Of a stretch of DNA of 64,000 nt, positions 3,215 to 46,428 are shown in pieces (position 1 is the stretch's first letter; each line of letters starts with the position of its first letter). A program made the position numbers and the translations under genes. The notes under the pieces were generated by a model. The model did not search any database, had not been told where the DNA came from, and saw only the letters and a list, made by a program, of their open reading frames with translations. This DNA comes from a virus. The DNA lies in the IMG/VR virus record IMGVR_UViG_3300024264_000006, positions 62,001-126,000 of that record. The stretch is one strand, 5' to 3'.

Positions 3215-3576
3215 TACGCTACCTCGCTATATGCTGGTTCAACACCAGATTCAACAATTTGTTCAACTATATCTGAAGCGTTATAGTCAAACCCACCAAT
3301 GTTCCACTGACACTCTTCAACGGGAATGCACCCATATTTCCAAGCGTAGATAGAGACCTGTTCATAAGACCAGTCATCTGCATCCTCAGCAAAATCATCT
3401 AAAACTTTGACGTTCAGAACCCACTCGCAAGAAACTTTTGCATAAGGATCAGCATCAGAATAAGATGGTGGCCCAAACAGGGCGACTAAATCGTCATACT
3501 TTGCCGTAATGTGGCCCTTCAAAGATGACCCGCTCTTGCTGAACCAGTCATAAACGTCATACTCAATTATTTTCAT
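3214..3576 (-). CDS. Conserved phage hypothetical protein, 120 aa
   Basis: Contains KYDDLVALFGPP and CEWVL, a pattern I have seen in a family of small phage and plasmid proteins of unknown function. Start ATG at 3574-3576 is preceded by a GAGAGGTATTTT ribosome-binding site, the same type used by the other early genes here. It is the first gene after a perfect TTGCCA-N17-TATAAT promoter, so probably early. Confidence 0.7.
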   Translation of the reverse strand: MKIIEYDVYDWFSKSGSSLKGHITAKYDDLVALFGPPSYSDADPYAKVSCEWVLNVKVLDDFAEDADDWSYEQVSIYAWKYGCIPVEECQWNIGGFDYNASDIVEQIVESGVEPAYSEVA

Positions 3577-3605
3577 AAAATACCTCTCTCATAATCAATA
3601 CAAGT

Positions 3606-3634
3606 ATTATACACTATTATACAACACTTGGCAA
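3606..3634 (-). promoter_or_regulatory. Sigma70-like promoter
   Basis: On the minus strand: TTGCCA (3629-3634), 17-base spacer, TATAAT (3606-3611); a second TATAAT lies at 3616-3621. It points at the 3214-3576 gene and starts immediately after the U-tract that ends the structured RNA. Confidence 0.75.
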
Positions 3635-3636
3635 AT

Positions 3637-3716
3637 AAAAAAAAATGGGTAGGGCGACAGGGTTAGCATGTCCCGAGCTTCCGGTTGAGTCCCCATCTTT
3701 CGACAGGGACATACCC
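3637..3716 (-). ncRNA. Candidate structured RNA ending in a U9 tract
   Basis: Minus-strand RNA directly downstream of tRNA-Arg. It can form a 9-bp stem (3702-3710 with 3689-3697) closed by a GAAA tetraloop. It can instead pair AUGUCCC (3706-3712) with GGGACAU (3668-3674), which excludes the first stem. The outer ends GGGUA (3712-3716) and UACCC (3647-3651) also pair, and nine U follow (3637-3645), as in an intrinsic terminator. It is not a tRNA and matches no ribozyme or riboswitch consensus that I know. Confidence 0.5.
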
Positions 3717-3722
3717 AAAAAT

Positions 3723-3799
3723 TGGCCCGCTAGAAGAGATTCGAACTCCTGACCCTTGGTTTCGTAGACCAATGCTCTATCCATCTGAGCTACTAGCGG
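3723..3799 (-). tRNA. tRNA-Arg(ACG)
   Basis: 77 nt with the CCA end encoded. The acceptor stem CCGCTAG/CTAGCGG is perfect, the anticodon arm is TTGGT-CTACGAA-ACCAA giving anticodon ACG (CGU codons, wider after A34 deamination), and the T-arm loop is TTCGAAT. It lies 8 bases after a small gene and 6 bases before the structured RNA, so they may be processed from one transcript. Confidence 0.95.
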
Positions 3800-3807
3800 G
3801 TGCTTCA

Positions 3808-3960
3808 TTAGTTACTGAACTGTTCAGTCCAAGCGATAAAAACTTCCTTCGCTTCTTTCTTGTCCAGATCGAATGATTCCATCAAAACACGTGGAGCTGC
3901 GAACATGTTGATCTGTCCGGACTCACGTAGTTCATTCAAAAATTCAAAGTAGAATTCCAT
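3808..3960 (-). CDS. Small conserved protein, 50 aa
   Basis: ATG at 3958-3960, TAA at 3808-3810. The sequence begins MEFYFEFLNELRESGQINMF and contains FDLDKKEAKEVFIAW; this form is familiar from short proteins of phages and plasmids (helix-turn-helix-like spacing, no proven function). The start overlaps the stop of the preceding gene. Confidence 0.75.
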   Translation of the reverse strand: MEFYFEFLNELRESGQINMFAAPRVLMESFDLDKKEAKEVFIAWTEQFSN

Positions 3961-4190
3961 TACTTGGCTCCCATAACTTTGTTATTCTTGAAGTAGACAC
4001 CAACAGGCGCTGTCAACTTGCCGATAATGGCCCAGTCTTCTGCCTTAAGAGCAGCGACATAGTTACCACCAGCGTCAGCGAACTTCACTCCAAGTTCGTT
4101 ATAGTCGTTGAGGAATTCAACCGCCTCAATTGCAGTCGCAAATTCTTTTGTATCTTTTGCGTTAGATATTTTTGGTTTTGCTATAAACAT
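3960..4190 (-). CDS. Hypothetical protein, 76 aa
   Basis: I place the start at the internal ATG (4188-4190, MFIAKPKISNAKD) because GAGAGAGGTGAAT directly before it is the ribosome-binding site used by neighbouring early genes; an upstream ATG at 4205 would put the site inside the coding sequence. Alternating strands ending in GVYFKNNKVMG; no family recognised. Confidence 0.65.
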   Translation of the reverse strand: MFIAKPKISNAKDTKEFATAIEAVEFLNDYNELGVKFADAGGNYVAALKAEDWAIIGKLTAPVGVYFKNNKVMGAK

Positions 4191-4204
4191 ATTCACCTCT
4201 CTCA

Positions 4205-4558
4205 TTAAACCGCATACACATCGATGTCAACGTAGTGCTTCCTGTGGAAGTAGTCAGTCATCGCATCGTCGTTGTTGAAGTAGTTCTCACCTTTCAAGGC
4301 AGTCATCAACTTCTCAAGCATCTCAACCACAACAGGTTGATCAGCATAGTGTTCTTGGAACCAGTAAGGGTTAATGCTCTTACCCCACTTCGCTTCGAAT
4401 TCATCCTTCATAGTGAACATCCCAGCAACGTCCTTCAACTTAAGAACGATAGTGCTGTGGTTCCTGATACGCAAAGTACCTTTCTGTCCGTATTCTTTCA
4501 GGATTTTCTTGACAACCGGAGCGATTGCCTTTTTCTCTTCTTGATTTATGTAAGCCAT
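4205..4558 (-). CDS. Conserved phage/plasmid protein, LPD29-like, 117 aa
   Basis: Begins MAYINQEEKKAIAPVVKKIL and has LRIRNHSTIVLKLK, resembling a domain of large polyvalent proteins and plasmid-borne small proteins (LPD29-like, from memory). The C-terminus has YFHRKHYVDIDV. No catalytic signature. It is the first gene behind the AT-rich early promoter at 4609-4690. Confidence 0.6.
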   Translation of the reverse strand: MAYINQEEKKAIAPVVKKILKEYGQKGTLRIRNHSTIVLKLKDVAGMFTMKDEFEAKWGKSINPYWFQEHYADQPVVVEMLEKLMTALKGENYFNNDDAMTDYFHRKHYVDIDVYAV

Positions 4559-4608
4559 AATGTATTCTCTCTCAATTTTTGGAAGGGACTATTCCCAACC
4601 AACATGTA

Positions 4609-4690
4609 TATAATACCACAACTGGCGGCAATGGCAACACTTTTTTTGAAAAAAAGCGCACTTTTTTTAGAACTTTTTGTTCTTAAAATC
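4609..4690 (-). promoter_or_regulatory. Early promoter with AT-rich upstream element
   Basis: TTGCCA (4632-4637) and an ATTATA/TATTAT -10 at 4609-4615 with a 16-17-base spacer. Upstream on the minus strand lie TTCTAAAAAAA and CTTTTTTTC blocks that recur at 23.2 and 51.9 kb. It drives the 4205-4558 gene. Confidence 0.65.
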
Positions 4691-4930
4691 ATCCTTCTTA
4701 GGTCTAAATTGTGGTGGTAATTCGTTGATCCACAGAGTGTCAAACTGATCACGGTTAGACCACATACCCCATAACATGAGTCCAACACCCACTAGTAACC
4801 AGATAATCGATCCTACGAGACTAGGCGGGTCGCCAGCGATACAATCTGCAGCTGCGTAACACTCATCCCAAAAGTCTTGATTACCTACCGTTCCCAGTAC
4901 AATAAAGAATCCAACAAAAATTCTGATCAT
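4667..4930 (-). CDS. Small two-span membrane protein, 87 aa
   Basis: Two hydrophobic segments, about residues 3-16 (IFVGFFIVLGTVG) and 40-58 (LVGSIIWLLVGVGLMLWGMW), with a charged C-terminus. Two cysteines lie in the loop between them (ECYAAADC). Similar short membrane proteins occur among phage early genes; function unknown. Its stop lies within the upstream AT-rich element of the next promoter. Confidence 0.65.
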   Translation of the reverse strand: MIRIFVGFFIVLGTVGNQDFWDECYAAADCIAGDPPSLVGSIIWLLVGVGLMLWGMWSNRDQFDTLWINELPPQFRPKKDDFKNKKF

Positions 4931-14773: not shown

Positions 14774-15505
14774 TTACCTCTTCTTCATCATTTTGTAGGC
14801 GATAGAGGCAAGAGCGGGGACAGTCATTCCGTCCATTCGCTTCTTGTTCTGATCATTGACTTTATCGTAGATTTGAGTAATTGCGGATGCTGTAAACATA
14901 TCTACCATAACACCATTGACCTTCTTGGCCTGTTGATTCTTTACTATATCACGTAGTTGATCCATATGTCCAGCCTTTTTTTCAGTAATTCCATCACAGT
15001 TCTCTGCTTGTTCTTCAATTTCAGTAGATTCAAACATTTTAGCAAGTTGCTTCGCATTAACTGTTTTGAATGAACCGAACTCATCAGTAACCCTAAATGA
15101 TAACTTACTACCATCAACTTTCATATCGACGGTGTGTACTTTACCCTTCTTATCTCTAAGACCTTTTTTAATCTTAGGGGGTCTTGCAGCCTCACTGACT
15201 TCTGCTTGTTCTTGCATCAAGCGTCCATTCTTGAACATTCCATGTTTCTTAAGAATTGTCAAAACACCATCACGGGGATCGGTGTCCATATTAGAAACAT
15301 GTTTCTTCAATCCCATGAATGCCTTGTTCTGAACCATAGTAGATGAGTTTTTACCAATCTCTCTTACGTATGCGGCCGCCTTTTCGAAATCTCTCTTGTC
15401 GATACCACCAGACTTCTTTGCGTAGTCAGATAGTGCCTTGGATGTCTTGAAGAAATCAATTGATTCATTGACTTTTATTTTTTTACGCAGTTCTTTTAAA
15501 TACAT
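14774..15505 (-). CDS. Head-associated multidomain protein, 243 aa
   Basis: Starts MYLKELRKKIKVNES. Contains two modules I recognise from large virion proteins of cyanophages: DFFKTSKALSDYAKKSGGID...DTDPRDGVL (about 17-84) and, at the C-terminus, VMVDMFTASAITQIYDKVND...MTVPALASIAYKMM. Between them is a small beta domain (KGKVHTVDMKVDG). No enzymatic motif. It abuts the next gene (one-base overlap). Confidence 0.65.
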   Translation of the reverse strand: MYLKELRKKIKVNESIDFFKTSKALSDYAKKSGGIDKRDFEKAAAYVREIGKNSSTMVQNKAFMGLKKHVSNMDTDPRDGVLTILKKHGMFKNGRLMQEQAEVSEAARPPKIKKGLRDKKGKVHTVDMKVDGSKLSFRVTDEFGSFKTVNAKQLAKMFESTEIEEQAENCDGITEKKAGHMDQLRDIVKNQQAKKVNGVMVDMFTASAITQIYDKVNDQNKKRMDGMTVPALASIAYKMMKKR

Positions 15506-15753
15506 TATGCTAAATCCTTATCGTGGTTGAGACCACCTTTTTTCTTTTTTACTATGAAGGCGTTGACACGTGCATATCCCCATTGTTGAGGGGTAGTGCC
15601 TGGCCTATGACCAGTCTTCCAAGCTGCAACACCACGATTATAAACCTTTCTTAAAGTAGCTACGGAGATACCAGATTTCTTTGCTTTCGCAGCAAGTCCG
15701 TCTGGGCCTTCTCCCAAGTCACCTAAACTGTCCCAAAGAGAGTATCGTTTCAT
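15505..15753 (-). CDS. DUF5824-like protein, 82 aa
   Basis: The stretch SGISVATLRKVYNRGVAAW followed by HRPGTTPQQWGYARVNAFI is the DUF5824 signature common in marine phage virion proteins. It usually occurs fused to larger proteins; here it stands alone and its start is overlapped by the upstream NMNAT-like gene. Function unknown. Confidence 0.7.
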   Translation of the reverse strand: MKRYSLWDSLGDLGEGPDGLAAKAKKSGISVATLRKVYNRGVAAWKTGHRPGTTPQQWGYARVNAFIVKKKKGGLNHDKDLA

Positions 15754-17243
15754 TCCGTCTCCCGATTTTTAACTTTAGCACGAGCGAGTCTTGCTCGATC
15801 TAGAACTCTATCGTGTCTTTTTTTGTCTTGTTCTTTTTCTCTGTTGATATCATTACGAGCGGATTTTACTGGATCGGTCTCTTCATATGCCTCACCACGT
15901 ACCGCACCACCCAATGCTTTGATATCCAACTTCAAACCGTGTTTACGGATAAGTTGTTGTGCGTAGTACTCAGGGCCATGTCTACCCTTGTCCGCTTTCA
16001 TTTGTTTGCGGATATGTTTCGCAACTTGTTGGTACTGTTTTTTCTTAACTGTTTTTGATGCCCAACGGGATATCATCTGAGGTGTGGTCTCTGCCTTGAG
16101 ACACATCTCAAAAGTAATTTCAAGTTCTTCAGGTACGCAATCAGGAACCATCTTGTTCCCTTTCTTCTTCATACCGACTTCTTTGTACCCATCCCAACAG
16201 TCTTCGTCATACATATCTTTGAATGCTTTGGTGTACTTGGACGGTTTGGTCTTTGCGGTCTTGTCGCCAGGCGCAGGCTTATATGCAGATGCGTCATCAT
16301 CATCCTTCTTGCCATGCTTCTTAAAATGTGCGTCTCGTTTTGACTTGGTAGACTTCTTTAGTCCGGCGTGATATTTTGCGGGTTGTGTACCTTCTCTATC
16401 TTTGATATCGGGGTCTTGTCGTTCAATGAGTTCGACTGACTCCAACCATTTGCGTAGTCGAGTGCCGTTCTTGCGTTCAACGATAACGTAATTTGATCCG
16501 AGTACACTGACCGTAGCCACTTCTTCGCTTTCTTTAATAACAACAGAATCTCCAATTTCATAGAGTTTACCCTGTACATATTTTTCTCTTGTTTCTGAAA
16601 CAGGCGTTAGTTCAATATGATTCTTGAATGAGTGCTCTTCCTTGAGCCCCATCCCTTTACGGACATCATTGAACAACTTCCTTGCATCTCTGTCCGACAT
16701 AGACTTAGGCACACCCTGTGCAAAAGTCACGAAGTCATTGTTCTGTGCGTTTGCACGTTGCTTAGATGCGGACATACCTTCCACACCTTCAGCATCCGGA
16801 TCACGTTTACCAGCGGATACTACACGAATAGTTTCGAAGTTATAAAACCCGTGACGAGCTTTCTTACCATTGTACTTAGACAACAGGACATCAAACTCAC
16901 GTACACGGTCATCCCCGACAACCATTGTTACTTTTTTATACCCTTGGTCATACAACCGTGAGGCGACATCAAATACATTCTTGACGTTCTTGTCGATCAT
17001 CACACTACGTGCATGTTTTGGAAACATCTTACGCACATGTTTAACCTTGTCTGAATATGACAAAGGGTCTTTCTTGGGGTTTGATACTTGGGACAAATAG
17101 ACTTTGTAGTCTGCGCCACCAGATTTGGAGGCAAGTGTGTCCATTACTTTACCGTGGCCGATAGTAGGTGGGTTCATTCTACCAAAGGTAAAATAAACTT
17201 CCCTTTCTTCTTCGACTAGGTACTGTGAAAAATTCTTAATCAT
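15750..17243 (-). CDS. NMNAT-like nucleotidyltransferase fused to phage virion domains
   Basis: 497 aa from ATG 17241-17243; a GTG six codons upstream is possible. Layout: capsid-targeting-like MIKNFSQYLVE (1-11); Rossmann-like nucleotidyltransferase (about 16-190) with GRMNPPTIGH (TxGH 27-30), VVGDDRV and SASKQR (158-163, ISSTxxR position); then a beta insert and two marine-phage virion modules, YHAGLKKSTKSKRDAHFKK...KPAPGD and CWDGYKEVGMKKKGNK...CVPEE; then a basic tail. The enzyme part would adenylate or cytidylate a phosphorylated substrate, NMN being the best guess. Being fused to virion modules suggests packaging. Confidence 0.7.
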   Translation of the reverse strand: MIKNFSQYLVEEEREVYFTFGRMNPPTIGHGKVMDTLASKSGGADYKVYLSQVSNPKKDPLSYSDKVKHVRKMFPKHARSVMIDKNVKNVFDVASRLYDQGYKKVTMVVGDDRVREFDVLLSKYNGKKARHGFYNFETIRVVSAGKRDPDAEGVEGMSASKQRANAQNNDFVTFAQGVPKSMSDRDARKLFNDVRKGMGLKEEHSFKNHIELTPVSETREKYVQGKLYEIGDSVVIKESEEVATVSVLGSNYVIVERKNGTRLRKWLESVELIERQDPDIKDREGTQPAKYHAGLKKSTKSKRDAHFKKHGKKDDDDASAYKPAPGDKTAKTKPSKYTKAFKDMYDEDCWDGYKEVGMKKKGNKMVPDCVPEELEITFEMCLKAETTPQMISRWASKTVKKKQYQQVAKHIRKQMKADKGRHGPEYYAQQLIRKHGLKLDIKALGGAVRGEAYEETDPVKSARNDINREKEQDKKRHDRVLDRARLARAKVKNRETE

Positions 17244-17664
17244 CTTTGTTCTGTCCGCCACGCTTTCGGTCTTTTTCCATTTTGCGTACTTTAGGTAACA
17301 GTTTACGAGCTACCTTATCAATTTTAGGACGCATCTTATCTAGGCGTTTCTCTATCTCTTGTCTACGAGCAAATGAGAGTTTACCTTTATCCGCACCCTT
17401 AGTCAACTTTTTGAAGAACATAGTACGTGCTTGTTTCTGTGCACGTTTCTTAAGTTTGTCCATATCGGCAAATTTACGTGCAGCTCTTTTACGCCCCATG
17501 GCGATCTTAGCTTTATTCTTCTTGAGTGATCGTGCGAGTTTTCGACGGGCAGCAAAATCTAATGCTTCTTCGGCGTTTTTCTTTGATTTGTATGCAACCT
17601 GATCGTCACCCGATTGAGTGCGATCTGTGGTTGTGAAGTCTTTAAATCCTAATGGCTTTGCCAT
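17236..17664 (-). CDS. Very basic helical head-associated protein, 142 aa
   Basis: Strongly Lys/Arg-rich (ALDFAARRKLARSLKKNKAK; RLDKMRPKIDKVARKLLPKV), alanine-rich helices, no Cys. The pattern is a conserved one among marine T4-like phages near the head genes. Net charge fits a DNA-binding internal protein. Starts MAKPLGFKDF; the stop overlaps the next ATG by eight bases. Confidence 0.65.
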   Translation of the reverse strand: MAKPLGFKDFTTTDRTQSGDDQVAYKSKKNAEEALDFAARRKLARSLKKNKAKIAMGRKRAARKFADMDKLKKRAQKQARTMFFKKLTKGADKGKLSFARRQEIEKRLDKMRPKIDKVARKLLPKVRKMEKDRKRGGQNKDD

Positions 17665-17667
17665 TTC

Positions 17668-18885
17668 TTACCTCTTTGGTTTATCCCATCCTTTCAAAAT
17701 ATCAGGCGAAAAGTTGTTATATGAAAATTCCATACGGTCAACGAGTTTCACTGCGTCACCACCAAGTTTGTCGATTGCTACGTAGCCTTCTTCGCCAGTT
17801 ACCTTGTAACCTTTGTTTGTTTTAACGAACGTATCAATCTTCTTTAAACTATCAAGTTTATTTATAAGTTTCATCTTCGCTAAAACGATCTGTTTTTGCA
17901 ATTCAAACATTTTAACAAGAGATTTTTTATTTGTTAGTGAGAAAAATTTCATGTAGGCGTCGAGTTTATCCTGTTGAGTTTTCTTGCCTCGTGCAGTACT
18001 TCTCTTATCCATCTCTGCCTTGAACTTTTTATTGATCCAATTAATAAGTCCGTTTACGTGCGTAGAAGTGTTACCAATCACCTGGCCAACCCGCACAAAA
18101 GTGTTATTGTATTGTTCTATCAACTTGGCAAGGTCATCGTTACCTTCAAGTTCTCGCAGAGTAGTACCGGATATCTGATTGAACAATTTACCAGCCTTAC
18201 TCAAGTAACCCGTTACTTCCGCAGTTTCTTTCTTATCCATCGTTGCATTTGTCACATCACGTAACATGGCGTCCTGAGACCACACACCAACTGAGTTGCG
18301 GAACTTAGATACATCAACACCATAGGATGCTTTCATAGACTCAAAGTCCGATCCGGTGTAGGTAGTATGCCATACGATACCGATCTTAGATTTTAGAATG
18401 TCCCCAGCCATTGATACGGGAACAGCATATACGATAGTATTAGGATGGAACGTAACATATTTTTCTCCATCGATGGTCTCTTTCTTTAAATCGCCGGGCC
18501 CGTAGAGGAAGTCACCCTGAACAACACCCTTGATGCCTAGAGCAGGAAGTTCTGCAAGTGCAACCTTCATTTTGTCTGCAAGGTCACCACTCATGTCCAC
18601 ATCAATCTCAGCATCGGTCTTATAGATTTTTGGATTCTTTGCAAAGATACCCTTTTTCGCAACAAAAAACTTTCCGTCATTGGGGTCTTGACCACAGAAA
18701 ATTGCAGGCGCACCGTCCCACTTAATGGAGACTCGACCTGTATCCTTTCCGCCTAACATATCACGCAACTCACGTAGAGCGTTTATTGCTTGACGTGTAC
18801 CATCAACACCACCATAGAGAACCTTGTCCTCAATGTGGGTCATGTGGGTGTTTTTATTCTCTGTTATAAACTCTGCGAATTTCAT
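17668..18885 (-). CDS. Putative nucleotidyltransferase with KWDG motif (DUF6267-like), capsid-targeting-like start
   Basis: 405 aa. MKFAEFITE at 1-9 is nearly the T4 capsid-targeting peptide MKTYQEFIAE, with ITE in the place of the cleaved site. SIKWDGAP (53-60) matches motif I of DNA/RNA ligases and capping enzymes (KxDG, Lys55 as nucleotidyl acceptor); VAKKG and VVQGDFLYG follow at ligase-like spacing. I recall similar proteins as DUF6267 of unknown function. Ligase, RNA-end modifier or relic are all open. Overlaps the upstream gene by four bases. Confidence 0.65.
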   Translation of the reverse strand: MKFAEFITENKNTHMTHIEDKVLYGGVDGTRQAINALRELRDMLGGKDTGRVSIKWDGAPAIFCGQDPNDGKFFVAKKGIFAKNPKIYKTDAEIDVDMSGDLADKMKVALAELPALGIKGVVQGDFLYGPGDLKKETIDGEKYVTFHPNTIVYAVPVSMAGDILKSKIGIVWHTTYTGSDFESMKASYGVDVSKFRNSVGVWSQDAMLRDVTNATMDKKETAEVTGYLSKAGKLFNQISGTTLRELEGNDDLAKLIEQYNNTFVRVGQVIGNTSTHVNGLINWINKKFKAEMDKRSTARGKKTQQDKLDAYMKFFSLTNKKSLVKMFELQKQIVLAKMKLINKLDSLKKIDTFVKTNKGYKVTGEEGYVAIDKLGGDAVKLVDRMEFSYNNFSPDILKGWDKPKR

Positions 18886-19331
18886 TTTCTCACCATGTTG
18901 AACATAGTTCCACTGCTACTTGTGTCGGTTGAAATCTTATATGCTCTGCCTAAATTCTTTGTTAAAAGTCTCTTGTACAATCTCTCTCTTCCCTGTAATA
19001 ATTTCTTATTACCTTTTTCTTTACCTGCCGCTGCATTCATATACTTGGGTTTTTCTATCTTAACAAATTGATTGACCACCTTAAAAACGGTTGCCATGAT
19101 ACGCAATGCATCACCCTCACCCGTCATTGATTGTTGACCATTACGTTCAAAACTAATCTCCCAATCTATGTGGTCATAGTCATCGATGTGTTCATCACCT
19201 TCGATGTTTATATTTAATTGACCACCATCATCAAGTTTAACTGTAGAACGATACCCCTGTTTCCCGTCCTTCTTTAGAGTGGCTGGATAAGGGTTGTCTA
19301 GTGATTCGGTTAGTTCTTTAAACCTAATCAT
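18882..19331 (-). CDS. Conserved phage protein, 149 aa, capsid-targeting-like start
   Basis: Starts MIRFKELTES, matching the shared N-terminal pattern with LTE as possible cleavage site. Middle part (LDDGGQLNINIEGD; WEISFERNGQQSMTGEGDALRIMATVF) is an alpha/beta domain seen in several marine phages. The C-terminal third is basic (KEKGNKKLLQGRERLYKRLL), including a run typical of DNA contact. Function unknown. Confidence 0.65.
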   Translation of the reverse strand: MIRFKELTESLDNPYPATLKKDGKQGYRSTVKLDDGGQLNINIEGDEHIDDYDHIDWEISFERNGQQSMTGEGDALRIMATVFKVVNQFVKIEKPKYMNAAAGKEKGNKKLLQGRERLYKRLLTKNLGRAYKISTDTSSSGTMFNMVRK

Positions 19332-20428
19332 CAGTTTGCCTTCGTATTCGGTTTGTAATCACACATAATATGTGATGGGTAGAGACCACCCTGTTTGTTA
19401 CGAATATTAAATTTGAATATGTAGAGTGGGGTGACAACTTCTATGTCAATTCTTTTTGCTTCACCTTTCTTAGGATAGAGAATCTTGATCGACTTGATTG
19501 TAGAAGCCTTTCTCATACGTGCTCTAGTCATCTCATAGAACTCTACCTTCTTACCTTTACGGTGTACCATCCAGTATCCCATACCGATACCCGTAATCAG
19601 AAGTCTTTGTAGTGCACGTCTGTTTGCTTGTGTTGGAATGACAACATCTTTTTTACCACGAGTAGCCGCCTTTTTAGGATCGTACTTGGTAAACGTTTCG
19701 ATGAATCTATCATGATCGATGCCGAACATGTTTAATAGTTTCTTAGCATCAGTGTGTGTGATCTTGCCACTATTAAACTGATCGTCGGTAAAGATGGTGC
19801 GGACACCCGCATTGAAAAATGTTACTGTACCACCAAATTTGGCAGACAGATAGTATGTACCCTTGTCGGTAGTAACTGTTACGTCTGTTACTTTGTGACC
19901 AATGTTCAGTTCACGTGAACCGATAACTGCACTAACATCTCCGAACACTAAGGGTCTTTTGGTGTTCGCTGTACCGTCTAGTTTAACTTCGATAAAAGAT
20001 GCATCCTTCAGAAACGCATCGTGCATTTTCTTTATCATATTAGGGAACTTGAAATCCCCATCTAGACCGGCTTCTTTATACTTGATTAGGTCAGTCACAA
20101 TCTGACCTTCGAATGCAAACCCTTGTGAGTTTATTCCACCGCCTCCACGAGAACCATTTCCCGCACTAAGTTTGAAACCATATTCGGAACCAAGGGCCGG
20201 TAGATTTAAATCAACTGCAACGGATCGTGCAATTTTAAGACCTTTCTCTTTAGGATTTTTAGATAATGCAATGGGATCAGCCATACCAGTTTGCTGAGTG
20301 ATATAGGCGTAGAGTGTCTTGAGGTTTTCCCTCTTCTCATCGGATAGATGATCTAGGTCATCTACCTCTGCTTGAGATTTTGGAATTATGTCATATGCTT
20401 CTGACACATACGATCCGAACTTCAACAT
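19331..20428 (-). CDS. Head-block protein with possible PD-(D/E)xK fold, capsid-targeting-like start
   Basis: 365 aa, first gene after the late promoter at 20466. MLKFGSYVSEA fits the shared N-terminus. Residues 99-112 are Gly-rich then FEGQIVTDL (E107); LVFGDVSAVIG (D164) and YYLSAKFGG (K197) follow, an E...D...SxK order resembling restriction-like nucleases. A basic C-terminal half contains TQANRRALQRLL. The nuclease idea is inference; no database family recalled. Confidence 0.6.
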   Translation of the reverse strand: MLKFGSYVSEAYDIIPKSQAEVDDLDHLSDEKRENLKTLYAYITQQTGMADPIALSKNPKEKGLKIARSVAVDLNLPALGSEYGFKLSAGNGSRGGGGINSQGFAFEGQIVTDLIKYKEAGLDGDFKFPNMIKKMHDAFLKDASFIEVKLDGTANTKRPLVFGDVSAVIGSRELNIGHKVTDVTVTTDKGTYYLSAKFGGTVTFFNAGVRTIFTDDQFNSGKITHTDAKKLLNMFGIDHDRFIETFTKYDPKKAATRGKKDVVIPTQANRRALQRLLITGIGMGYWMVHRKGKKVEFYEMTRARMRKASTIKSIKILYPKKGEAKRIDIEVVTPLYIFKFNIRNKQGGLYPSHIMCDYKPNTKAN

Positions 20429-20465: not shown

Positions 20466-20473
20466 TATTTATA
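20466..20473 (-). promoter_or_regulatory. T4-type late promoter (TATAAATA)
   Basis: Exact late consensus overlapping the end of the nuclease gene and 38 bases before the first head-block gene. A TATAAT sequence lies just downstream. This suggests the whole 11.6-20.4 kb block is expressed late. Confidence 0.7.
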
Positions 20474-21152
20474 AGAATTGCACGCTTGTATTTTCCTCAT
20501 TGTATTGTGCAATTGTCTCTTTTAATGGTCTTACCCAATTGTCACGGTGTTCGATAAAGACCTGAGGCTCGTGGTTGTCTACCGCAATGATAGTTACCAA
20601 CTGAGTGATAGGAATACCTGTACGTTCTTCCCACATAATTGAGTATGCAGATTCTTGCATGAAGTACTGTTTGATCATAGAAGGAAACTTCTTCTTACGA
20701 GAAGTTTTGAAATCTATGATGCTGAGGGCGCCATCAAACTCAGCAACGCAATCCACCCGACCAGCCACACCAAGGTGATTGGAATAGAGTGGAGCCTCTT
20801 GTGCAAATACTGTCCCAATACGATTGTCGAGGATATCACGAACATCATTAAGAGACTGAATAATATCAGGTGTGTATCCATCTTTATAATCCTCTTTGTT
20901 ATCAATGTACTTTTCGATAATCTCATGAACCTTCGTACCACGAGTTGAAGCAACACGAGATATTCGGTTTGCTTCTTCATCACCAACACGTCTACGCCAA
21001 GCGGCAATACCGTCTCGACTTAGGATTGACAGACATGTAGTGATTGAAGGTAGATCAACGCCTTCTGGGGTATGGTACTTACGACCTTCCTCAGTAGTCA
21101 CTGCTTCCATCTCTGTTAGTTCCACCTGTTTGTGGTCAAATATCTTTCTCAT
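20469..21152 (-). CDS. RecB/Cas4-like PD-(D/E)XK exonuclease
   Basis: 227 aa. RGTKVHEIIE (71-80), QEAPLYS (E119), GRVDCVAEFDG (D134), IIDFKTS (D147, K149) and QYFMQESAY (162-170) form the complete Cas4/RecB/MGME1 nuclease signature. Such single-domain exonucleases are common in T4-like marine phages and probably act in DNA processing or host DNA degradation. No Fe-S Cys cluster is present, unlike Cas4. The stop lies in the late promoter of the next gene. Confidence 0.88.
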   Translation of the reverse strand: MRKIFDHKQVELTEMEAVTTEEGRKYHTPEGVDLPSITTCLSILSRDGIAAWRRRVGDEEANRISRVASTRGTKVHEIIEKYIDNKEDYKDGYTPDIIQSLNDVRDILDNRIGTVFAQEAPLYSNHLGVAGRVDCVAEFDGALSIIDFKTSRKKKFPSMIKQYFMQESAYSIMWEERTGIPITQLVTIIAVDNHEPQVFIEHRDNWVRPLKETIAQYNEENTSVQFL

Positions 21153-44816: not shown

Positions 44817-45373
44817 AAATAGACTGAAGGGTCTGGGTCTCCCTCAACACCGAAACTAAATGTCGCACGTGATATACGTGGGAATATTTGGTGGTGTGTG
44901 CCACGTGGTAGGTAAACATAATCGCCGGGATGGAAGTCGAATTCTTCGTTGTTATTCACTCCCTCAACACGTATACCGATAGTAGAGATTACCTGTACCA
45001 AGAAAACATCCATACTGTCTTTATGCCATGGGTAACTATCAGATTCTTGGCCAAACCCAGTAAATGCAATGTTGGTTATGCTTCTTTTGTTACCATGCAG
45101 TGAAAAGAAGTCTTCAATCTGTTCTTGAATTTCTTTCGCAAAATCAGGTGCGGAAGGTCTGCCATGAAAGACATTGAGTCCGATCCTAAACTTACTTGAG
45201 TTAGAGTCAACCTTTTCTAGTGGATGAGTATCCAACATATCCATATGTCGGTTCCAGTCGTAATTCTCAACAACGTCCTTTGGTAAACTACCAAAGAAAG
45301 GCGTCTTGGAGGCTACATTGTCTTCTTGTCCTTCAAATAGTTTTGGTATCATGAAAATCTCTTTTGTAGCCAT
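44813..45373 (-). CDS. JmjC/cupin-type Fe(II)/2OG oxygenase-like protein
   Basis: 186 aa. WHKDSMDVFLVQV gives H117-x-D119; FDFHPGDYVYLPRGTHHQI gives H160/H161 with the PGD-YLP turn of JmjC and cupin hydroxylases; RATFSFG closes the barrel. May hydroxylate a protein or sugar; the substrate is unknown. Overlaps the upstream gene by 25 bases and is convergent with the plus-strand gene. Confidence 0.7.
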   Translation of the reverse strand: MATKEIFMIPKLFEGQEDNVASKTPFFGSLPKDVVENYDWNRHMDMLDTHPLEKVDSNSSKFRIGLNVFHGRPSAPDFAKEIQEQIEDFFSLHGNKRSITNIAFTGFGQESDSYPWHKDSMDVFLVQVISTIGIRVEGVNNNEEFDFHPGDYVYLPRGTHHQIFPRISRATFSFGVEGDPDPSVYF

Positions 45374-45636
45374 TTAAACAGAGCGTATATACTCAATCCA
45401 TAAAAGGCCAACACACTCATAGGTAAAGCGATATAGGCAAGTTCCCACGGACTTAGGAACAATACCTGCCATGTAAAATCTGCGATTGCCTGTCCGTCAC
45501 CGGATAACTCAGGCACAACATCTACGTTTTCGGAAAATTCTTGTTGAAGGTCTAATTCATATTCACGTATGAATAGACTCCACTCCTGTTCGGAAAAGCA
45601 TATATGGTTTTCTTTACACCACTCCTTTTCCACCAC
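45349..45636 (-). CDS. Hypothetical membrane protein, 95 aa
   Basis: Soluble acidic N-terminal half (two Cys) and a hydrophobic C-terminus (WQVLFLSPWELAYIALPMSVLAFYG), then a basic end FKWLQKRFS. One or two spans. Downstream of regA; no family recalled. Confidence 0.6.
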   Translation of the reverse strand: MVEKEWCKENHICFSEQEWSLFIREYELDLQQEFSENVDVVPELSGDGQAIADFTWQVLFLSPWELAYIALPMSVLAFYGLSIYALFKWLQKRFS

Positions 45637-45638
45637 GG

Positions 45639-46049
45639 TTACTTGTTTCCGATATTATATTTTGGACAAAGTTCCCATTGATCCTTATCCTTAAATCCAA
45701 TAATTTTAATTTGACGCATAGGCGCACAGTCTTCTGCAACTTCCTTGTTATGGATTTCTACCAGACCCCAGTCTGCTAATAGAGTTGCGATAGTGTTGCG
45801 TCTTTGTACATCCGATAATTCTAAGTTAGACTTCTTACCGTCCAACATGAATAGTTCTTTGAAGTGTACAATGAAGTATCTTCCTTGTTTATGCAAGATA
45901 TGACAAGATTGAAATAACTTGTTCTCTTTACGAGAAGCTACTCCGATTCTTGTTAGGGTTTCTCTCACTTTCAAAAAATCATCTGGTTCTGCCAGAATGA
46001 CTTCCAACATCTTTGCCGGATTCCATTCAACAATATTATTTTCTTCCAC
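45639..46049 (-). CDS. regA: RegA translational repressor
   Basis: 136 aa. EPDDFLKVRETLTRIG, LFQSCHILHKQGRYFIVHFKE, RNTIATLLADWGLVEI and ELCPKYNIG follow T4 RegA (122 aa) along the whole length. Represses translation by binding near start codons of early mRNAs. Position between gene 62 and gene 43 matches T4 order. Overlaps gene 62 by 14 bases. Confidence 0.93.
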   Translation of the reverse strand: MEENNIVEWNPAKMLEVILAEPDDFLKVRETLTRIGVASRKENKLFQSCHILHKQGRYFIVHFKELFMLDGKKSNLELSDVQRRNTIATLLADWGLVEIHNKEVAEDCAPMRQIKIIGFKDKDQWELCPKYNIGNK

Positions 46050-46428
46050 CTTTATTCACCTTATTTTTTATAAATTCAATTTGTTCGGAAGATAGTAGAG
46101 ATACCACTTGGCGGGCTTTTTCATTGCTATAGCCATAATACTCTTTTATCACTTCCACGTTCTTTTCAACATCAGGTTTTACCCATTTGGAGAAACGTTT
46201 CCGTTTCCTAATGATATTTATAAAAAAATCATATTGTAGACGGTTGTCTATATAGTGGTGAATATTCATGGCATTCGCCAATGAAACTGTGTCTTGGAAG
46301 TAAGATAGGGTACGATTTACCACAAAGGGTACGTACTGTTTTTCTTCGTCTGTTCCTTCCATGAGGTTTTTCTTGTTAGTGTTGATACTATTCAAGAAAT
46401 CAAATGGACTAATTTTCTGTCCAGCCAT
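46036..46428 (-). CDS. 62: Clamp loader small subunit (T4 gp62-like)
   Basis: 130 aa from ATG 46426-46428 (MAGQKISPFDFLNSIN); two ATGs upstream are possible. YVPFVVNRTLSYFQDTV, YDFFINIIRKRKRFSKWVKP and YYGYSNEKARQVVSLLSSEQ are the family segments. Works with gp44 to load gp45. A TATAAT promoter lies in the end of the upstream gene. Confidence 0.9.
   Translation of the reverse strand: MAGQKISPFDFLNSINTNKKNLMEGTDEEKQYVPFVVNRTLSYFQDTVSLANAMNIHHYIDNRLQYDFFINIIRKRKRFSKWVKPDVEKNVEVIKEYYGYSNEKARQVVSLLSSEQIEFIKNKVNKGGRK

Follow-up and report, generated by a model that had tools for sequence, protein, structure and literature searches.

What is an NMNAT-like nucleotidyltransferase doing behind a leader of the kind that loads proteins into the head of phage T4? 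The question is raised by a gene in a window of 64,000 nucleotides, the whole stretch of DNA analysed here, which is part of a virus record of 147,636 bases. The reading that best explains the locus, with a probability of roughly three in four, is that the product is an internal head protein, ejected from the capsid, that is also an enzyme. The features of the gene and its neighbourhood are collected in Table 1.

Table 1. Features of the nucleotidyltransferase locus (window positions, except for the prohead protease)
Feature	Position	Strand	Description or basis
Nucleotidyltransferase gene	15750..17243	minus	497 aa: leader + NMNAT-like nucleotidyltransferase domain + C-terminal modules
T4-type capsid-targeting leader MIKNFSQYLVE	17211..17243	minus	T4 IPII/IPIII register; predicted prohead-protease cut after E11
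Nucleotidyltransferase domain, residues 13-205	16629..17207	minus	Alignment, AF2 model, fold search
Motif GRMNPPTIGH (ATP-binding TxGH), residues 21-30	17154..17183	minus	Sequence, alignment
Motif MSASKQR (ISSTxIR-type), residues 157-163	16755..16775	minus	Sequence, alignment
Small beta domain, residues 226-274	16422..16568	minus	Alignment, AF2 model
N-terminal half of DUF5824, residues 288-347	16203..16382	minus	Sub-threshold profile match
Module, about residues 340-448	15900..16223	minus	Common to virion protein S-SZBM1 gp137 (S-SZBM1_139)
82-aa ORF, C-terminal half of DUF5824	15505..15753	minus	Overlaps the nucleotidyltransferase stop by 4 bases
142-aa basic protein	17236..17664	minus	Overlaps the nucleotidyltransferase start; leader-like start in relatives (C48C1 MLSFKQFVSE)
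DUF6267 protein	17668..18885	minus	Leader MKFAEFITE; motifs KWDG / QGDF / EGYV / KLVDR, ligase-like by eye only
149-aa protein	18882..19331	minus	Weak leader-like start MIRFKELTE
365-aa protein (PHROG 8438)	19331..20428	minus	Leader MLKFGSYVSE(A); without known domain
PD-(D/E)XK exonuclease (Cas4-like)	20469..21152	minus	Upstream gene
gp21 homologue (prohead protease)	contig 130521-131210

The open reading frame is genuine. Two in-frame starts are available, an ATG at 17243 (ORF 15750-17243) and a GTG at 17261 (ORF 15750-17261), and the former is taken as the start because the relatives initiate, with ATG or GTG, at exactly the codon of 17243 (M/V-IKNFSQYL) and because the stop of the gene upstream overlaps it. 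The closest annotated relative is that of phage C48C1, with 69% identity across 90% of the protein, followed by those of the Methylophilales phages Melnitz, Pelagibacter phage HTVC008M and then many cyanomyoviruses. In the GenBank entry of the C48C1 relative (L001:15010-16416) the annotated start, 15076, corresponds to residue 23 of the aligned protein and drops the leader and the first part of the GRxNPP motif; the likely start is 15010. A search with the N-terminal domain returns 552 phage records, mainly from Synechococcus and Prochlorococcus phages, together with jumbo phages of Escherichia, Klebsiella, Pseudomonas, Erwinia, Salmonella and Cronobacter. The scan of species genomes, by comparison, gives matches in just 18 contigs, all from marine metagenome-assembled genomes, and on the available evidence the family is therefore widespread and phage-specific. 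A cellular origin was set aside, as these 18 contigs are likely phage contigs binned with their hosts. The enzyme finds no match in the defence library searched.

The preliminary description presented the protein as a TxGH nucleotidyltransferase with intact GRMNPPTIGH and SASKQR motifs, and both motifs are indeed found. In an alignment of 75 relatives that extends down to about 44% identity, residues G21, R22, N24, P25, P26, T27, G29, H30, S158, K161 and R163 are invariant, as are G110 and D112 of a GxDR motif. The catalytic domain is modelled by AF2 with a pLDDT of about 90-95, and among solved structures the model best matches those of NadD, of archaeal NadM and of one PPAT (NadD 8aih, E 8.8e-5; MthNMNAT 1m8j, TMt 0.65; PPAT 3otw, 0.60). 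Both the fold and the motif order, GRxNPPxxGH ... GxDR ... SxSxxR, are common to NadD, NadM and NadR. At the level of profiles, the domain matches PHROG 395 and 3041 (cytidyltransferase) with E-values of 1.3e-67 and 6.9e-68, and Pfam CTP_transf_like at only 0.003, under the Pfam cut-off; a sequence search against solved structures gives nothing useful. The curated NCBIfam NadD, NadM and NadR models do not match the window protein, and the 75 family members match below cut-off only, 22 of them to NadD, 16 to NadR, 7 to NadM and 7 to CoaD. Taken together, the invariant motifs, the NadD and NadM folds and the sub-cut-off matches make nucleotidyl transfer the very probable chemistry. A TagD-type cytidylyltransferase, which had been raised by annotation, was rejected: the glycerol-3-phosphate cytidylyltransferase model is absent among the matches listed for the 75 members, where NadD and NadR are present, and by its profile matches and modelled fold the domain is NMNAT-like and not TagD-like.

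With the signature residues of both catalytic motifs invariant over such a range of identity, and with stand-alone versions of the domain in jumbo phages, there is very little to recommend the idea of a structural core protein that carries a dead nucleotidyltransferase domain, even though a C-terminal module is held in common with a virion protein.

How such an enzyme might reach the host is suggested by the other end of the protein. T4 IPII, IPIII and Alt are packaged and ejected internal proteins, although we know of no packaged nucleotidyltransferase of this fold in T4. IPII and IPIII begin MKTYQEFIAEA and the window protein begins MIKNFSQYLVEEE; when they are aligned at the glutamate (position 0), each has an aromatic residue at -6 and at -3 and an aliphatic one at -2, in the N-terminal register [FY]xx[FY][LIV]xE, and the predicted cut after the glutamate (marked by a slash) falls in the same place, IKNFSQYLVE/E against MKTYQEFIAE/A. 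Outside the leader there is no sequence relation to the T4 proteins.

This strict pattern is found in 70 of the 75 diverse relatives, with F at -6 in 70/70, Y or F at -3, mostly L at -2, and E at 0; the remaining five still start F-K-x-[FY]. In the virus's own genome the T4-derived pattern matches 5 of 197 gene-like ORFs against 0.47 expected (1000 shuffles, maximum 4), in a test that is only partly blind since the motif was refined with the sequences in view, and three of the five are near neighbours: the nucleotidyltransferase, the DUF6267 protein and the 365-aa protein. Only the strict register was used because a looser pattern proved no better than chance, with 20 matches against 18.3 expected. 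The sole match at an annotated start in 129 kb of S-SCSM1 is the NMNAT, and five of the six in C48C1 belong to this same gene cluster or its vicinity. Cyanophage relatives (S-SM2, S-SCSM1, ACG-2014d, S-RIM2) keep the leader even where the enzyme follows only after tens of residues of weakly conserved linker. The jumbo-phage relatives are bare domains of 177-190 aa that have neither leader nor C-terminal modules, and the relative in HTVC008M has no clear leader. The capsid-targeting-like start that had been pointed out earlier is thus borne out, and judged by its N-terminal sequence the protein has what is expected of a T4-type internal head protein. Outside the window, at record positions 45245-46144, there is also a 291-aa ORF with a T4-like leader, MQSFNSFLHEE.

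The record contains a homologue of the prohead protease gp21 (Table 1). The virus's major capsid protein reads GFMTEAAPA where that of S-SCSM1 has SFLAEAPT and that of S-CREM2 GLLTEAPT, from which cleavage motifs FMTE/A in this phage and FLAE/A and LLTE/A in S-SCSM1 and S-CREM2 can be proposed. These aligned motifs suggest a local prohead protease with the T4 specificity, which cleaves behind [hydrophobic]-x-E, and the predicted site in the nucleotidyltransferase, LVE/E, would fit it.

Relatives of the enzyme have been detected in virions. Three unique peptides of S-CREM2 ORF154, whose coordinates are those of the database match to the nucleotidyltransferase, were found by virion mass spectrometry (PMC10665884), two peptides of S-SZBM1_140, which corresponds by length and mass to gp136, in the virion proteome of S-SZBM1 (PMC9146016), and ORF91 of S-SCSM1 is a listed virion protein together with its neighbours 89, 90, 92, 93, 95 and 97 (PMC9602691); S-CBWM1 is cited as a further phage with such a virion protein. 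RaK2 ORF448 does not appear in the main text of its publication, where the virion list is a supplement. The virion-detected proteins of S-SCSM1, S-CREM2 and S-SZBM1 all start with the leader, reading MKSFLQFLKEAA, MKNFSSFLTEAD and MRFRQFIIEAV respectively, and belong to the same family in the same register. They differ from the window protein in that a variable linker, which it lacks, sets their leader apart from the enzyme, and it in turn adds DUF5824 and further C-terminal modules and has a leader-bearing DUF6267 neighbour. The presence of an NMNAT-like protein in cyanophage virions was reported in these earlier studies (PMC9602691, PMC10665884, PMC9146016), whose authors also proposed that it is carried in and acts on NAD; what is added here is the leader as a family-wide packaging signal, as far as the open-access literature goes, its absence in jumbo relatives, and evidence against NAD salvage.

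The authors of the proteomes warn of possible carry-over into virion preparations, and the leaderless jumbo-phage relatives indicate that the enzyme can exist without a packaging signal. It could accordingly be a cytoplasmic enzyme of infection that contaminates virions, its leader being a chance or unrelated N-terminal helix. This is improbable, since the leader is conserved over very divergent relatives and is common to unrelated neighbours, and since the virions of S-SZBM1 and S-SCSM1 report the leader-bearing enzyme and not the leaderless DUF6267 protein. The DUF6267 protein of S-SZBM1 is gp135, or S-SZBM1_141 by our own numbering, a number absent from the main text of the proteome paper (PMC9146016), and that of S-SCSM1, gene 257, lacks the virion-protein label. 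For the window protein itself, packaging is predicted from its sequence and from the published mass spectrometry of its relatives, in which some carry-over may be included.

Under the preferred reading of an ejected head enzyme, residues 1-11 would serve as a capsid-targeting sequence of the T4 type and take the protein into the prohead core. A gp21-type protease would then cut after E11, to leave an intact nucleotidyltransferase domain from residue 12-13, and the enzyme would be packaged with the DNA and enter the host at injection. There, with an NTP as donor, it would place a nucleotide (AMP is the most likely one) on a small molecule that bears a phosphate. As the leader is the same head-loading address label that T4 proteins carry, injection of the enzyme along with the DNA is very probable, and the place given to it in the preliminary description, in an injected set like that of T4 Alt and the internal proteins, is likely in view of the conserved leader and the virion-detected, leader-bearing relatives.

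The identity of the phosphorylated acceptor is where the earlier proposal, that the enzyme forms NAD and so counters NAD depletion, comes into question. Such an injected NMN adenylyltransferase, rebuilding NAD against NAD-depleting defences, would be consistent with the NMNAT-like fold and profile matches and with the likely packaging. Phages are also known to rebuild NAD against defences through NARP pathways (PMC12774641; PMC9503650). A P-loop kinase of the Zeta toxin/AAA_33 type is fused to or lies beside the nucleotidyltransferase in a few relatives (L238:5406-7595, L235:5522-7447, L003:9345-10007), and in L238, L235 and HTVC008M the arrangement resembles that of NadR. In the virus's own genome, however, there is no match to the NAPRTase/NadV family (PF04095) or to NAD synthetase, and 11 of 13 phages that bear the nucleotidyltransferase lack NadV. 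The two exceptions, the jumbo phages RaK2 and pEa_SNUABM_50, have a separate NadM-Nudix gene beside NadV. This phage NatV is likewise a HIGH-type nucleotidyltransferase, but it is of another family and adjoins NadV, and the genomes that have it also carry, as a separate gene, a relative of the enzyme considered here. A published survey finds that NadM-bearing phages all have NadV too (PMC9503650). The rarity of NadV, the separate NadM-Nudix gene and that survey together imply that the NMNAT typical of NAD salvage in phages is a different enzyme from the present one. In RaK2 the genes in question, ORF498 and ORF500 (L274:1144-2208, 3330-4802), are annotated as hypothetical; they match the NadM-Nudix and NAPRTase (NadV) families and are upstream of a Sir2-like gene.

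The chemistry of the defences is a further difficulty. What remains of NAD after the action of NAD-depleting defences is mostly nicotinamide and ADP-ribose; an NMNAT without NadV is unable to use these, and to our knowledge NMN is not a product of the common NAD-depleting effectors. The structural comparison with NMNATs also gives a divided answer: the NadD/NadM fold is there in the AF2 model, but alignment with two phage NadM-Nudix proteins shows the NMN-binding NxxW segment of NadM to be missing, and within residues 14-205 no tryptophan is conserved among the relatives. Several Phe and Tyr residues are conserved and could stand in for the aromatic residue of the NadM pocket. NAD reconstitution, once the leading idea, was dropped after the NadV and NAD synthetase searches, and as a full account of the locus it is now improbable. 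For the acceptor as such, a phosphate ester other than NMN or nicotinate mononucleotide is slightly more likely than not. Those two form the single best guess, a tentative one that is less likely than the other phosphates summed, in an assignment that draws on weak profile matches; an inactive enzyme is unlikely.

The C-terminal part of the protein had been described as domains otherwise seen in marine phage virion proteins, which is supported for one module. Residues of about 340-440 match S-SZBM1 gp137 (E 1e-6), a protein present in the published virion proteome as S-SZBM1_139 (PMC9146016); another stretch is half of DUF5824. That domain is split over two overlapping ORFs here, and in HTVC008M, Melnitz and other relatives it lies inside one gene, that of the enzyme. 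Many relatives of the small ORF with the second half have a leader, MxxFKxYLxE.

The gene sits in a tight cluster on one strand, with several start/stop overlaps, in the order exonuclease, 365-aa protein, 149-aa protein, DUF6267 protein, small basic protein, nucleotidyltransferase and DUF5824 half. Several relatives of the 365-aa protein apparently start at MAYDIIP, leaderless. The DUF6267 protein is a second leader-tagged neighbour, new here: its leader is present in 63 of 70 relatives, in a slightly looser register and with residues otherwise unrelated to those of the nucleotidyltransferase leader, and cyanophages such as S-SZBM1 and ACG-2014d have leaderless versions. When contigs were fetched through DUF6267 alone, the nucleotidyltransferase was on the same strand in 72 of 79, most often less than about 600 bases downstream. 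In the DUF6267 protein KWDGAPA, QGDFLF, EGYVAI and KLVDR follow one another as the motifs of covalent nucleotidyltransferases and ligases do, and to judge from these residues it may represent an unrecognised enzyme family. Its assignment as a ligase was not retained.

This pairing allows for an injected set for the repair of nucleic acid ends, in which the ligase-like DUF6267 protein, the exonuclease and, in some relatives, the kinases would be served by a nucleotidyltransferase that makes or recycles a dinucleotide cofactor, for example NAD from the NMN freed by an NAD-dependent ligase. The close linkage just downstream of DUF6267, the leader on both proteins in this lineage and the retention of KWDG, QGD, EG-V and K-V-R across 70 DUF6267 members speak for it. 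No ligase emerges, however, from the profile search, from comparison with T4 RNA ligase 2 or from the fold search with the DUF6267 model, the C-terminal part of which is of low confidence; Pfam RNA_ligase has no match in the virus's own genome; and the cyanophage DUF6267 proteins are leaderless and unlisted in the virions of S-SZBM1 or S-SCSM1. An end-repair set is unlikely, if less so than NAD rebuilding. A bolder and similarly improbable extension of the ejected-enzyme reading is that this phage-specific family, which its T4-type leader would bring into the heads of hundreds of marine phages, produces a novel small molecule of dinucleotide type in the host during the first minute of infection, together with DUF6267 as a second injected, covalent nucleotidyltransferase.

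The nucleotidyltransferase is present in hundreds of T4-like phages from the sea, mostly cyanophages. Delivery together with the DNA, if it occurs, would let the enzyme act ahead of all phage gene expression, an unusual timing for an enzyme of metabolism. The leader turns an unexplained detection in proteomics into a testable mechanism and, being readable from sequence, may allow the injected proteins of marine phages to be predicted by a simple rule, one that can be checked against existing virion proteomes.
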